Source: Bacteriovorax sp. BAL6_X (lineage in GTDB: Bacteria > Bdellovibrionota > Bacteriovoracia > Bacteriovoracales > Bacteriovoracaceae). Taken from it: 64,000 nucleotides of DNA. Below the pieces are notes generated by a model that was given only the letters and a program-made list of their open reading frames with translations, did not search any database and was not told the DNA's origin. The position numbers and the translations under genes are program-made. Numbering within the stretch: the first letter of the stretch is position 1; each line of letters starts with the position of its first letter. Shown piece by piece: positions 41,731-50,556 of the stretch. The stretch is from NCBI RefSeq assembly GCF_000443995.1, contig NZ_AUMC01000003.1, positions 744,001 to 808,000 on the forward strand, written 5' to 3'.

Positions 41731-42264
41731 CTATTGCTTTGTTTTAATTAATTTAGATGTATCAAAGTGAAGATCCTTGGCCTTGGCAACTAGTTCAAGG
41801 TAGATCTTTTCATCAAGTTCTCTAGTTCTTGATAGGATCCATAGGTACTTTCTAGATTTATCTCCAACCATGGCATATTCGTAATTATTACCTAGGTCTA
41901 AAATCCAATAATTTCCAGCAAAGATAGGAAGTTTTATTCCACGTAGGAAGAATTGAACTTTAAGCTTTGCATTTGTTTCTTTATCAACAACCCAAGCTCT
42001 TGCCTTGGCCGTTTTCAATTCGCCTGATGGAGAGCCTTGTCGACATGTGTTTAGAACTTCGATATCTCCATCGGATCTCAGGCTATAATTAGCTGTAACT
42101 GCGGTACAGCCTTTTTGAAAGCTTTGCTCAAAGCGTGCAATTTCATACCATTTACCAAGGTACTTTTGTAGTTCGACATAATCAACTGTATCCAAAGGGA
42201 GAGTAGACCCAGAGAAAGTAAGTGAACTTGATAAAATGGCAATAAGTAACATGAGCTTCTTCAT
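41731..42264 (-). CDS. blc: Outer-membrane lipocalin (Blc-like)
   Basis: The 177-residue protein has the lipocalin motif GKWYEIARFEQSFQKGC, a GDIEVLNTCRQG strand, and the late motif YLWILSRTRELDE. The signal peptide (MKKLMLLIAILSSSLTFSGS) lacks a clear lipobox Cys, so it may be periplasmic rather than lipid-anchored. Lipocalins bind lipids or porphyrins; a role in membrane stress fits the light-damage operon. It lies 20 bases from the next gene. Confidence 0.88.
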   Translation of the reverse strand: MKKLMLLIAILSSSLTFSGSTLPLDTVDYVELQKYLGKWYEIARFEQSFQKGCTAVTANYSLRSDGDIEVLNTCRQGSPSGELKTAKARAWVVDKETNAKLKVQFFLRGIKLPIFAGNYWILDLGNNYEYAMVGDKSRKYLWILSRTRELDEKIYLELVAKAKDLHFDTSKLIKTKQ

Positions 42265-42282
42265 TTTTTCTCCTTTATAATT

Positions 42283-43671
42283 TTATTCAACATGGTTTTT
42301 AGTTTCACCAAAAATTTTGTATAATTTTTGGCTACGATAATTAAAAATTTTATTAATATCCTTTCTAATAAAGGCGCCAGCAAAGATTCGTCCAATCTCG
42401 CCCATAGGAACTTTATATGTAATATTATCAGTCATTAATGTTCCATTGGCGTACCTCTTAAAGCCGTGAGTATGAACCCACTTCTTATATGGCCCCTTAA
42501 GTTGTGTATCAGTGAATTCTTTATTGCGATTGAAATTCGAAATCTCAGTCTTCCACTTGAATGGCAGGCCGTAGAGACTTAATTTATAGTCAATGATTGT
42601 ACCGGTCTCAATCTGTTCAGTACTTTTTCCAATTACTTTGAAGCTAAGTGATTCAGGGGTAATTGTTTCAAGATTTCTTTCATCACTAAAGAAATCAAAA
42701 ACTTCAGCTAATGGATGTTTCAACCATTGTATTTGTTTAAATTCTTCTTCTGGCCCAACAAGGTTAGTAAGCGCATCTTCAAGGTGTTCAAATTTGAATT
42801 TATAGCCTTTCTCTAAAAGATTCTTCGGATATACATTTTGTCCATCAAGCACAAGTGTGGCCATTTCCCCAAGAGCTATCCTTATTGCAAAAGCTGGAGC
42901 TGGAAGTAATGTTGGACGTTTTAAAACCTTTCCCAAAATTCTCGTGAAATTAGAATTTGAGTGGGCCTTAGGTGCAACAGCATTAAATGCTTTTTCAGTA
43001 AAGTTATTCTCCACTAGGAAGCGATAAATTGAAACCATATCCGAAAGATGAATCCAACTCATCATCTGCTCACCACTACCTAGTTTTCCTGCCACTCCTA
43101 GCTTAAACGGAATAAGCATCTTCTCAAGAGCTCCACCATTTCGTGCAAGGACAACTCCTGTTCTGACATGATTGACGACAATTTCTTTATTTTGAATATT
43201 AGCAGTTTCTTTCTCCCAAGCAATGCAAGTCTTAGCGAGAAAGTCACTTCCAAAATCTGCTTGCTCATCTAAGATTTGGTCTCCATTTTGATTACCATAG
43301 ATTCCGATGGCACTTGCGCTAATAAACTTTTTAATCGGCAGAGTTTTATTTTCATTAATTGTATCCACGAGTAGACGAGTTGAATGCACGCGCGAGTTGA
43401 TGATCTTTTCTTTTTGTTTTTTGGACCACCTTCTAGCTCCAATATTTTCACCAGCAAGATGAATAATAGTATGAACTGAATTAAGTGCAGCTTTATCAAT
43501 TTTGGCCTTTTCAGGATCCCAGTAGAAGCATTTGATTGGAATATTGAAGGAAGCCTGCGCCTTCTTAGGATTTCTAGTTAGAACGTGAATATTTTCGTGT
43601 CCATGGATGGCCAAATCATGAATTAATTCACGGCCAATTAGTCCTGTTGCACCGGTAATTAGAATTCCCAT
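42283..43671 (-). CDS. TIGR01777-family oxidoreductase with SRPBCC domain
   Basis: The 462-residue protein has a Rossmann SDR epimerase domain (MGILITGATGLIGRELI; SASAIGIYG), the DUF1731 C-terminus (TLLPAPAFAIRIALGEMA), and an additional SRPBCC (START-like) domain from about residue 310 (HPLAEVFDFFSDERNLETI). It is the first gene of the operon and is preceded by AAGGAG. The family is often found near photolyase and LitR genes; the reaction is unknown, but lipid or isoprenoid chemistry is plausible. Confidence 0.85.
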   Translation of the reverse strand: MGILITGATGLIGRELIHDLAIHGHENIHVLTRNPKKAQASFNIPIKCFYWDPEKAKIDKAALNSVHTIIHLAGENIGARRWSKKQKEKIINSRVHSTRLLVDTINENKTLPIKKFISASAIGIYGNQNGDQILDEQADFGSDFLAKTCIAWEKETANIQNKEIVVNHVRTGVVLARNGGALEKMLIPFKLGVAGKLGSGEQMMSWIHLSDMVSIYRFLVENNFTEKAFNAVAPKAHSNSNFTRILGKVLKRPTLLPAPAFAIRIALGEMATLVLDGQNVYPKNLLEKGYKFKFEHLEDALTNLVGPEEEFKQIQWLKHPLAEVFDFFSDERNLETITPESLSFKVIGKSTEQIETGTIIDYKLSLYGLPFKWKTEISNFNRNKEFTDTQLKGPYKKWVHTHGFKRYANGTLMTDNITYKVPMGEIGRIFAGAFIRKDINKIFNYRSQKLYKIFGETKNHVE

Positions 43672-43693
43672 TAATTACTCCTTGTGTAGGTTA

Positions 43694-43735
43694 TGTATAT
43701 ATAATATAATATACAACACTTAAACAATATATTGT
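43694..43735. promoter_or_regulatory. Two palindromes between the photolyase operon and its regulator
   Basis: TGTATAT (43694-43700) and ATATACA (43709-43715) form a 7-bp inverted repeat with an 8-base centre, and ACAATATATTGT (43724-43735) is a perfect 12-base palindrome. Both lie in the 81-base divergent gap, where TATAAT-like boxes are embedded. They are candidate binding sites for the MerR/B12 regulator. Confidence 0.5.
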
Positions 43736-43752
43736 GAGATATTGAGGTAGAA

Positions 43753-44658
43753 ATGAAGCAAAATGTAGCAATTCGAATAATATCAGGTATTTGTAATGTT
43801 CAACCTCACACAATTCGCATGTGGGAGAAGAGATATAATGCTTTTTGTCCTATTCGAGATGAGGCCGGTCAACGCTTGTATGGCCCAGAAGATCTGGCCC
43901 GAGCTAAAATCATTGCCTCGCTTATAAAGTCGGGCCAAACTATTTCAAAGGTGGCAAGTCTTTCATTAGACGATTTAAAGGAGATGAGTCTTGTCATAAA
44001 TCAGTCAAGTATCTCGCAAGAGGATAAAGTCGAAAAATCAATTGATATCCTATTTGCGTCATTAGCTCTATATGAAATTGAAAATGTGAGAAATGAAATT
44101 GAGTTTCTAAGGCTAAGTCTTAGTGCTCAAGATTTTATTTTTTTAGTTGTTCTTCCAATTATGCAAAAAATTGGTGGTTTAGTTTTTGATGGGAACTACA
44201 GTGTTACTCAAGAACATATTATCTCCACGATAGTACGTGATCAATTAGGACAGATTCGTTTACCTAATAATGACCTCAAAGGCCGATATGTACTTGCAAC
44301 CCCAGAGGGGAATCTTCATGAACTCTCAATTATTATTGCAGACATACTTTGTCGTACAAAAAGAATAGGCACATACTATCTTGGTGCTGCAAATCCTGCT
44401 GATTGTTTAGCTGAGGCCATTAATGCGCTAAATTGCAAAGGTCTTATCTTGGGTGCTGTTTCATCTGATGGCTGGGATTATTTTAAAAGCATTATTCCAT
44501 ATCTACAAAAAATCGATGAGAAACTTGAGCGAAAGATAGATGTAGTGATCGGTGGAGGCCATCCTATTAAGCTACCTAAATTCAAAAATATTGAGTTAGT
44601 ATTAATTATTAATGACTTTCAGACTTTTAATAATACTTTTCTGGCAAATGCCATATAA
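43753..44658 (+). CDS. MerR-type regulator with B12-binding domain (CarH/LitR-like)
   Basis: The 301-residue protein has a MerR helix-turn-helix (1-70; HTIRMWEKRYNAFCP), a cap-like helical domain and a cobalamin-binding Rossmann domain. The cap has Glu154-His155 (TQEH), and His189 in GNLHELS is where the lower axial ligand of CarH sits. In the cap motif W-x9-EH, the Trp position is Val144. CarH/LitR regulators use adenosylcobalamin to sense light and repress genes in the dark. It diverges from the photolyase operon. Confidence 0.85.
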   Translation: MKQNVAIRIISGICNVQPHTIRMWEKRYNAFCPIRDEAGQRLYGPEDLARAKIIASLIKSGQTISKVASLSLDDLKEMSLVINQSSISQEDKVEKSIDILFASLALYEIENVRNEIEFLRLSLSAQDFIFLVVLPIMQKIGGLVFDGNYSVTQEHIISTIVRDQLGQIRLPNNDLKGRYVLATPEGNLHELSIIIADILCRTKRIGTYYLGAANPADCLAEAINALNCKGLILGAVSSDGWDYFKSIIPYLQKIDEKLERKIDVVIGGGHPIKLPKFKNIELVLIINDFQTFNNTFLANAI

Positions 44659-47824: not shown

Positions 47825-47920
47825 AAAATGTGTCCTTAATTAATTATTGTTGAACCTGAATACCATGTCCAAATAAATTAGCCAGCATAATTGTAATTCT
47901 TATTGCCTTTAAGTTTATCG

Positions 47921-48027
47921 AGATTTAGGATAGTTAGCGCTAGGTGGTGAAGTTGGTGTAATTCCAACACTGTCCCGCAACGGTAAAGTCCGATCCCAAG
48001 CTAGCGAAATCTTTAAATCCCGAGGAG
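47921..48027 (+). promoter_or_regulatory. Cobalamin riboswitch
   Basis: The conserved core is plain: GTGTAATTCC, then CACTGTCCCGCAACGGTAA, close to the B12-box of cobalamin riboswitches. Supporting stems are AGATTT (47921-47926) with AAATCT (48007-48012) for P1, CGCTAG (47938-47943) with CTAGCG (48001-48006) for P2, and GTTGG with CCAAC around the first loop. The short path from core to the closing stem fits class II. The Shine-Dalgarno GAGGAGGA lies just after P1, so control is probably at translation start. Confidence 0.85.
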
Positions 48028-48033
48028 GAATCA

Positions 48034-48429
48034 ATGAATAAAGCGCAATTAAGCGAAGCAATTGCACGCGCAAAAACTACGGTAGTTAGGGCCGTTTTTC
48101 CTAATAGTACAAATCACTATGATACCTTATTTGGTGGTAACACCCTAAAATGGATGGATGAGGTGGCCTTTATCACAGCAACTCGTTTTGGCCGTAAAAA
48201 GTTTGTCACGGTCTCAAGTGACCGAGTTGACTTTAATATGCCTATTCCTGGAGGGCATTTCGCAGAGCTTGTCGGTGAGATTACGAAGGTTGGTAATAGC
48301 AGCTTAGTAGTTGAAGTAAGACTAATGCTAGAGGGAATGTATGAGGAAGGTCAAGTTGAAGCTGTTAAGGGAAGTTTCACATTAGTGGCCATTGACGATG
48401 ATCGCAGACCTGTACCAATTTTCTTATAA
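48034..48429 (+). CDS. Acyl-CoA thioesterase (YciA-like hotdog)
   Basis: The 131-residue protein is a hotdog-fold thioesterase: PNSTNHYDTLFGGNTLKWMDEVAFITATR with the conserved Asn/Asp, then VTVSSDRVDF and LVGEITKVGNSSLVVEV. YciA-type enzymes hydrolyse acyl-CoA esters. The gene starts just after a cobalamin riboswitch, so it should be expressed when B12 is scarce. GAGGAGGA precedes the ATG. The next genes follow at 44 and 25 bases on the same strand and may be in the same transcript. Confidence 0.88.
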   Translation: MNKAQLSEAIARAKTTVVRAVFPNSTNHYDTLFGGNTLKWMDEVAFITATRFGRKKFVTVSSDRVDFNMPIPGGHFAELVGEITKVGNSSLVVEVRLMLEGMYEEGQVEAVKGSFTLVAIDDDRRPVPIFL

Positions 48430-48473: not shown

Positions 48474-49040
48474 ATGCCATATTTTGAAGATGAAGTTTTT
48501 GATACTGAAAATATTAACGAGGTCAGTGAGTTAAGGGGGAGTGAATTTATCTGCTGTGAATTCGTTAGTATTGATATTAGTGAACTCGATGCATCGAATG
48601 CAAAATTTATCGAGTGTACTTTTACAAACTGTAACTTGAGTAATTTAAAACTACTCGGGGCAAGCTTTCGTGATGTGACATTCGTTGATTCTAAATGCAT
48701 TGGCCTAAACTTCAGTGACTGTAATACGCTTTTCGAACTCAAGTTTAATCGTAGTATTCTAAACTATGCTTCCTTTCAAGATTGTACAATCCATGGAGCT
48801 CAGTTTATTTCTTCAACTCTCAAAGATACTGATTTTACTCAAAGCACTTTTGAGAGTGGTGACTTTTCAGATAGTGATCTGCTGGGAACAAATTTTACGA
48901 GAACTAATTTAAAGGGTTCTAAGTTTCTAAATGCGCGAAATTTCTATATTGATATTACAAATACAAATTTAAAAAACTGTAAGTTTTCAATGCCTGAAGT
49001 TCTCAATCTGTTGAGTCCATTTGGTATTGAAATCGAATAA
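48474..49040 (+). CDS. Pentapeptide-repeat protein
   Basis: The 188-residue protein consists of A(D/N)LXX-type repeats throughout (for example NAKFIECTF, NLSNLKLLGASF, LNYASFQDC, DTDFTQSTF, GTNFTRTNLKGSKF). This right-handed beta-helix occurs in Qnr and McbG proteins that protect DNA gyrase, and in many unrelated ones. No repeat loop typical of Qnr is identified. It lies 44 bases after the thioesterase. Confidence 0.85.
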   Translation: MPYFEDEVFDTENINEVSELRGSEFICCEFVSIDISELDASNAKFIECTFTNCNLSNLKLLGASFRDVTFVDSKCIGLNFSDCNTLFELKFNRSILNYASFQDCTIHGAQFISSTLKDTDFTQSTFESGDFSDSDLLGTNFTRTNLKGSKFLNARNFYIDITNTNLKNCKFSMPEVLNLLSPFGIEIE

Positions 49041-49065: not shown

Positions 49066-50556
49066 ATGAAGAATCAAGGTAAATTCTCAATTAGAGTTAA
49101 GGATAAAATCCGCTCTCAAGTCAATAGTGCGACTTCTCCTGAACATCTGTACTCTCAAAAAGATTTCATGTACGAACGAAAAGGTCCTTGGCCGCAGCCA
49201 TCACCTGTACATCCATGGGGAGAGTCGCCAGCGGTTATTCATATTCCATTAAGAGAAACTCTTGATTGGTGGTTATTTATTGGTTCACGTTATGTTGCGA
49301 CACTGGCACTTTCGCCATATTACTTTATTAAAGGTCTTTTATTTCCAGGCCTAAAAGAAGTGCGAAATGATGAATTTGAAGATCTTTTAAATTATTCTAT
49401 GATGAGTAAATTTCTTACTGATAAATTAGATGACGAAGATTGGCAGTGCTTTCACAATTATAACAAAGATGAGAAGAGTTGGTTTATTGTGGACCTAGAT
49501 GCCGTTCGTGTTGTTAAGCCTTTGAAAGGGATTCATGTCAGTGCGACAAAAACTCTTCTTTATAAAGAAGGGGATCGCTTTAAAGTTCAAGCGATTTATG
49601 TTCAAAAAACTGAAACTATTTTTGACTTCTCGACTCCTAGTGATGGATTAGAGTTAGCTAAGTACTTTGTTCTTCAAGGGGGGGCCTTATGTGCAACTCT
49701 TGTTGTTCATCCTTTGTTACATTTTCCTTTTGATTCAATTAATGCCATTTCGAAAACGTCATTACCAAAAGACCATATCCTCTTTAGACTTCTGTCTCCA
49801 CATTTCAGGTTTACTCTTCCGCTAGAGAACGCAGTTCTGAATTATAAGAGTTCTCTTTTACAGGAGAAATGGTGGATGACCTATGCTCCATATCCTGGAG
49901 GACCTGAGGGACTAAGAGATCTACTTGTGGAAGGCTATAAAGGTATTAAAGGAAATCTTTCATATCCACCTTTTTCATACTCTCTTAAATCACCATGTGT
50001 AGAAGGTAAATACGGGACGTATTTGAACCGTTACTATGAAGTGTTTTATAAATTTGTAAAAGGTATTTTGGCAGATGTGAGTGTCGATGATTTTTGGATT
50101 AGTAAATGGGCCGACTACTGCAATCAACATGTAAATGACTTTCCTTCGAGCAAAGAGATTTTCAAAGAGGATACATTAGTACGCGCTGTTACTACCTATC
50201 TTTTTACTGTCACAGTGGCCCATGCTACTGATCATTATAATTATGGAATCTTAGATAAAAGAAAAGTACCTCTAAGGTTAAGACAGGCACCTCCAAATAA
50301 GGATACGAAAATGATAAAGAGGTCAAAGCTTGTAAATGCAATTGATCAAATGAAGTATTCAATGGCCGATAATTTATTTTTTTCTCCAACAACAGTTACA
50401 AAGTTAATTAATGCTCGCTATAAGTTTAAGGATCCAAAACAAATGAAGGTTGCTCAAAACTTTAAAGAAGAATTGAGAGCTTTAGATAAATCATTGAAGT
50501 TAGAAGGGATAGAGTATATGCCACTTAGGAGAATTTCTGCCAGTATACAATTTTAA
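49066..50556 (+). CDS. Lipoxygenase-like protein
   Basis: The 496-residue protein has parts of the lipoxygenase iron site. The region VVHPLLHFPFD (His215, His219) precedes SLPKDHILFRLLSPHFRFT (232-250), very like the lipoxygenase segment after the first iron His pair. His386 and His390 in AHATDHYNYG correspond to the next two iron ligands. The first pair is spaced one residue closer than the usual H-x4-H. If active it would oxygenate polyunsaturated fatty acids. No signal peptide is seen. It has AGGAAGGC before its start and probably shares a transcript with the thioesterase. Confidence 0.62.
   Translation: MKNQGKFSIRVKDKIRSQVNSATSPEHLYSQKDFMYERKGPWPQPSPVHPWGESPAVIHIPLRETLDWWLFIGSRYVATLALSPYYFIKGLLFPGLKEVRNDEFEDLLNYSMMSKFLTDKLDDEDWQCFHNYNKDEKSWFIVDLDAVRVVKPLKGIHVSATKTLLYKEGDRFKVQAIYVQKTETIFDFSTPSDGLELAKYFVLQGGALCATLVVHPLLHFPFDSINAISKTSLPKDHILFRLLSPHFRFTLPLENAVLNYKSSLLQEKWWMTYAPYPGGPEGLRDLLVEGYKGIKGNLSYPPFSYSLKSPCVEGKYGTYLNRYYEVFYKFVKGILADVSVDDFWISKWADYCNQHVNDFPSSKEIFKEDTLVRAVTTYLFTVTVAHATDHYNYGILDKRKVPLRLRQAPPNKDTKMIKRSKLVNAIDQMKYSMADNLFFSPTTVTKLINARYKFKDPKQMKVAQNFKEELRALDKSLKLEGIEYMPLRRISASIQF

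Follow-up and report, generated by a model that had tools for sequence, protein, structure and literature searches.

What is a gene for an acyl-CoA thioesterase doing behind a vitamin B12 sensor? In the window, i.e. the whole 64-kb stretch of the Bacteriovorax sp. BAL6_X genome analysed here, an earlier note made from the sequence alone had placed a class II cobalamin riboswitch upstream of such a gene, and an Infernal check was positive. When the window was compared with all Rfam models using cmscan, the sole match above threshold was RF01689 (AdoCbl-II), positions 1-81 of which were matched in full by an aptamer at 47938-48006 on the + strand (43.2 bits against a gathering score of 36.5, E = 4.7e-7). 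In a whole-genome search, a second model, RF00174, also exceeded its gathering score on the same aptamer (47909-48031; 32.1 versus 31.5 bits). The conserved core, CTGTCCCGCAACGGTAA, lies at 47970-47986 on the + strand, is exact and occurs once in the window; shuffled sequences gave no matches even with three mismatches allowed, and 0.00 are expected by chance.

The riboswitch itself belongs to a known class and is unremarkable within it. “Class II” is here a model label: the window leader best fits RF01689 and has a short P6-region arm, but the same locus in sister genomes (leaders L005-L008), before the same gene, best fits the class I model RF01482. The label is unstable along the locus because the arm inside CGGTAA...AGTCCGA differs in length between loci. 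This P6-region arm is present or absent when L005-L008, L040, L042 and L060 are compared with 47938-48006 of the window and, as judged from these leaders, one locus seems to change back and forth between class I-like and class II-like forms.

The gap between the end of the aptamer and the thioesterase ATG is 27 nt and holds the putative expression platform, a P13/L13-like element T-CCCGAGGAGG-A at 48018-48029 (+ strand). CCCGAGGAGG itself spans 48019-48028 and includes the Shine-Dalgarno sequence AGGAGG (48023-48028), 5 nt 5’ of the start codon. Most orthologous leaders have the same element, CCCG(A/C/T)GGAGG, ahead of the start codon, and it also lies before btuB genes. Its closing pair covaries: among 20 sequences it is T-A in 10, A-T in 7 and unpaired in 3, i.e. 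paired in 17 of the 20, with a Fisher P of 7e-4 that takes no account of relatedness. An L5-L13 kissing pairing was sought by eye in the leader and none could be defined with confidence, so the covarying pair given here is solely the closing one of the L13-like hairpin. Because the Shine-Dalgarno lies inside the conserved CCCGAGGAGG and the 27-nt space is too small for a terminator before the ATG, control of the thioesterase is most likely exerted at translation initiation and not at transcription termination.

Several leaders are built differently. L059 (G080) and L061 (G086) keep the aptamer while the CCCGNGGAGG element is gone and CACGAGGTATGT stands in its place, hence their expression platform differs. 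In L039 (G124) and L041 (G030), the ribosome-binding site of the riboswitch serves a frame of 7 codons (MNFIITS* and MNISSDL*, respectively) that stops about 100 nt short of the thioesterase start and may be either a leader peptide or a start that has been displaced. In L048 (G003) and L050 (G002), where the riboswitch lies 300-450 nt upstream of the thioesterase, the interval between aptamer and gene holds several near-identical, hairpin-like tandem units of about 85 nt.

The gene itself (48034-48429, + strand) encodes a hotdog-fold acyl-CoA thioesterase of 131 amino acids, which scores 56.7 bits against the Pfam 4HBT model (PF03061; gathering score 20.6). It had been described as YciA-type. 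The protein does belong to the same hotdog superfamily and shares the overall motif LFGG..MDE with YciA and ACOT7-type hydrolases, but it is not YciA proper, scoring 30.2 bits against the NCBIfam model NF007970, for which the equivalog cut-off is 162. Its closest relatives of solved structure are 2GVH (AGR_L_2016p of Agrobacterium; 159.7 bits) and 2EIS (TTHB207 of Thermus; 112.9 bits), and we refer to it as the TTHB207/2GVH type; these scores, 113-160 bits with a single sequence, become 144-217 bits with a family profile. Paralogues of the YciA/ACOT7 type in the order reach only about 65 bits, and the five that were placed in a tree fall outside the riboswitch clade. Residues N27, D42 and E43 are invariant in 21 orthologues; D42 we take to be the counterpart of the catalytic Asp of YciA.

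We then asked whether riboswitch and thioesterase stay together elsewhere. Close orthologues (124-281 bits) were found in 25 of the 129 genomes of the order that were searched, with a clear gap to YciA-like paralogues, which score about 65 bits or less, and a cobalamin riboswitch lies upstream of 23 of the 25, the exceptions being those of G053 and G054; the background rate of such riboswitches is, on a rough estimate, in the range of 3e-4 per gene. Two further families of Bdellovibrionota (f3 and f10) carry the riboswitch before four of five orthologues examined, at 60.2, 33.0 and 30.3 bits and, in the fourth, at 17.8 bits, where inspection of the sequence shows both the core and CCCGCGGAGG; none was detectable before the orthologue of G244 (f10). 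The core, P1 and the leader are retained even though thioesterase identity falls to about 50% and the surrounding gene order is entirely different. The pairing that the earlier note had singled out is thus real: three families of the phylum have kept it, and it turns up again in Deinococcota and Alphaproteobacteria.

In the order, a BtuB-like gene stands next to the riboswitch at 44 of 59 loci inspected, and the other next genes include the thioesterase, NrdG with class III NrdD (G006) and class I NrdB-NrdA (G124); inspection of sequences added a BtuF-type periplasmic binding protein. The loci before ribonucleotide reductase genes (L019, L023 and L026) cover class III nrdGD (G006; NrdG in G085) and class I nrdBA (G124). 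The order's regulon, as read from these gene assignments, combines B12 uptake with genes whose products work without B12. On plasmids of three Thermus species, the order is riboswitch (32.7, 35.4 and 48.3 bits), thioesterase, nrdB and nrdA, with nrdB directly next. In Deinococcus, the thioesterase precedes nrdI-nrdE, behind leaders that are weak (24.6-33.5 bits, several near 25) or unmatched, and in D. radiophilus genes other than nrdI-nrdE follow it. A strong riboswitch in Shinella (129 bits) and Ensifer (114 bits) is followed by metE and then by a 2GVH-type thioesterase with tandem hotdog domains, the frame of which is overlapped by the end of metE in Ensifer and nearly met by it in Shinella; a second strong riboswitch lies behind metE-thioesterase in both, in Shinella before nrdHIEF. 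Novosphingobium has a 115-bit riboswitch followed by DUF1852, methionine synthase and thioesterase genes, then acnD-prpF. Thus, the thioesterase recurs behind the riboswitch and clustered with metE or with B12-independent ribonucleotide reductase genes, as expected of a member of the back-up regulon.

Relatives that have no riboswitch sit in methylcitrate (propionate) operons, in Paracoccus (thioesterase-prpD-prpC-prpB), Azospira and Variovorax, the last two at an identity of just 37-38%, and this placement supports propionyl-CoA-type substrates. Among the annotated neighbours of distant paralogues in Bacillus, S. meliloti and Sphingobium, neither context was present. In a tree of 53 proteins whose deep joins are weakly supported (75/88), the riboswitch label changes 7 times, versus 14.6 in shuffles. 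A close relative, 52% identical and with no detectable riboswitch, lies downstream of a PhzF-like gene in NZ_OL790811.1 (Proteus mirabilis; L161), a nearly unannotated “plasmid” record that at 4.08 Mb is the size of a chromosome.

Does the host depend on B12 in a manner that would give such an enzyme work to do? Its 3.23-Mb genome (99.98% complete) was searched family by family. It contains exactly two cobalamin riboswitches, that of the thioesterase locus and one preceding a TonB receptor of 591 amino acids closest to BtuB (TIGR01779, 184 bits, under the cut-off). The B12-dependent mutases on which the earlier note's inference depended are both encoded and both over their cut-offs: methylmalonyl-CoA mutase (MCM; 707 amino acids, 1260 bits versus 876) and IcmF (1049 amino acids, 1620 bits versus 1500). 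MeaB, an adenosyltransferase, MetH and propionyl-CoA carboxylase-like genes are also present, while the family searches found no CbiC, MetE or PrpD, for each of which positive controls were matched; a search for class II ribonucleotide reductase (PF08471) found no match in control genomes either and hence carries no information. Because MCM, IcmF, MetH and a BtuB-like receptor are present and CbiC, MetE and PrpD absent, the host looks like a B12 importer that needs B12 to make methionine and to dispose of propionyl-CoA. Across the order, MCM occurs in 123 of 129 genomes, whether or not the thioesterase is present; as nearly all genomes have it, its co-occurrence cannot test a link to the thioesterase. 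PrpD over its cut-off was found in none of the 25 thioesterase-bearing genomes versus 8 of all 129 (P = 0.17), which is compatible with the link and not significant.

Together, these results point to a role in B12 shortage: in the reading that we consider probable, the riboswitch represses the thioesterase while B12 is present, and shortage would release an enzyme that relieves the cell of propionyl-type CoA esters left by stalled mutases. With B12 plentiful, the ligand would stabilise burial of the Shine-Dalgarno in the L13-like element, and little enzyme would be made; with B12 scarce, the gene would be translated. Upon exhaustion of B12, MetH and the adenosylcobalamin-dependent mutases MCM and IcmF would stall, and propionyl-CoA arising from odd-chain fatty acids, branched-chain amino acids and methionine would back up, with no methylcitrate dehydratase in the host to offer another outlet. 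The thioesterase is then predicted to hydrolyse the stranded short acyl-CoA esters, so that CoA is freed and the acid leaves or waits, which would be the benefit to the cell. Since propionyl-CoA is the common denominator of the mutase and methylcitrate contexts, it is most likely the main substrate; methylmalonyl-CoA or (iso)butyryl-CoA may perhaps be hydrolysed as well.

Other explanations start from the neighbourhood of the gene in the window. A pentapeptide-repeat gene (48474-49040) and a gene for a lipoxygenase-like protein of 496 amino acids (49066-50556) follow closely, as the earlier note had stated, the intervals being 44 and 25 nt; no terminator-like site was found on the + strand between the three genes. 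Co-transcription is therefore allowed, and either neighbour could in principle be the true target, with the thioesterase as a passenger. We regard this as scarcely credible: gene order around the riboswitch-thioesterase pair differs from genus to genus and the thioesterase alone is constant among the loci compared, which refutes it as a general explanation, and the 27-nt spacing with its embedded Shine-Dalgarno points to the thioesterase start as the control point. The candidate operon of thioesterase, pentapeptide-repeat and lipoxygenase-like genes was likewise discarded as a conserved unit, both neighbours being present after the thioesterase in the window and at no other locus compared. The product of 49066-50556 is a divergent bacterial lipoxygenase-like protein, with a weak match to animal 12/15-lipoxygenases (E = 1e-6) and no matches in Pfam or NCBIfam. 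Lipocalin and SDR genes occur near LitR-type regulators, and the window has such a group at 41731-44658, 3.3 kb upstream of the riboswitch: a CarH/LitR-like gene with MerR and B12-binding domains (43753-44658; 67 bits with the CarH model, far under its cut-off of 400), divergent from genes for an SDR and a Blc-type lipocalin. The SDR matches TIGR01777 (YfcH-like) and has a C-terminal polyketide-cyclase-like domain. The locus could on this basis be a light-responsive island, in which photolysis of adenosylcobalamin relieves both the riboswitch and a CarH/LitR-like repressor, and thioesterase, lipoxygenase-like protein, lipocalin and SDR together serve a photo-oxidative lipid response. However, several unrelated genes separate the CarH-like gene from the riboswitch, and no relative shares these window neighbours while the riboswitch-thioesterase pair is kept, making this account very improbable.

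That the riboswitch-like sequence is decayed or due to chance, and the pairing a mere inherited intergenic region, would agree with the leader folded alone by thermodynamic folding being no stabler than shuffles (z = 0.46), a single-sequence result that is not informative. The retention of core, P1 and leader despite thioesterase divergence and reshuffled gene order, and the recurrence of the association in other phyla, leave this explanation next to no credence. A more serious alternative accepts the riboswitch control and assigns the enzyme to lipids, where it would either tune the pool of fatty acids (odd-chain or methyl-branched primers) or hydrolyse longer acyl-CoAs for membrane remodelling, with no relief of a mutase block. 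Thioesterases of this hotdog superfamily often accept a broad range of chain lengths, so that the substrate is not readable from sequence, and in a metagenome study a B12 riboswitch was reported to control a fatty-acid desaturase (PMC2211319). Yet the relatives adjoin metE and nrd genes and no lipid genes, and others sit in methylcitrate operons, where propionyl-CoA is the only CoA thioester substrate. We thus consider a lipid role unlikely, and retain relief of stalled mutases as the preferred reading.

If that reading is correct, the consequences extend beyond this host. On balance, we lean towards a dedicated “B12-outage” thioesterase in at least three phyla, which would form a third riboswitch arm beside MetE and B12-independent ribonucleotide reductase by hydrolysing mutase-stranded propionyl-type CoA esters. 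Of the three common B12-dependent steps, those for methionine and for deoxynucleotides are served by known back-ups; to our knowledge, coping with a stalled acyl-CoA mutase, the third step, is rarely addressed. The proposal offers a specific, easily assayed enzyme for that stall, conserved across phyla, and has a parallel in human methylmalonic and propionic acidaemia, in which acyl-CoA builds up. It would also give a physiological role to two structural-genomics orphans, TTHB207 (2EIS) and AGR_L_2016p (2GVH), for neither of which the literature searched gave one. In their main texts, the cobalamin-regulon papers searched do not name a thioesterase as a riboswitch target, and the pairing was not found in the literature searched, to which the surveys of 2003-2004 (Rodionov 2003, Vitreschak 2003, Nahvi 2004) did not belong, so priority is uncertain. 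What appears to be new is the target and the logic, i.e. relief of a blocked B12 enzyme and not its replacement.

How, then, does the locus compare with systems already known? TTHB207 resembles the window gene in lying behind a cobalamin riboswitch, and is itself followed by nrdB-nrdA. AGR_L_2016p differs in being a tandem hotdog, whereas the window protein has a single domain. The closest functional precedent is that of the B12-independent isozymes, metE and nrdAB, nrdHIEF and nrdDG, which are controlled by cobalamin riboswitches (PMC545781, PMC3766115, PMC9600662). The thioesterase shares with them the sensor family and the logic, a gene for coping without B12 that would be kept off while B12 is present. 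Unlike them, it is no isozyme of a B12 enzyme and would instead relieve the build-up of mutase substrate. By analogy, the best explanation is that the thioesterase would be to the mutases what metE is to MetH and what class I/III ribonucleotide reductases are to class II.
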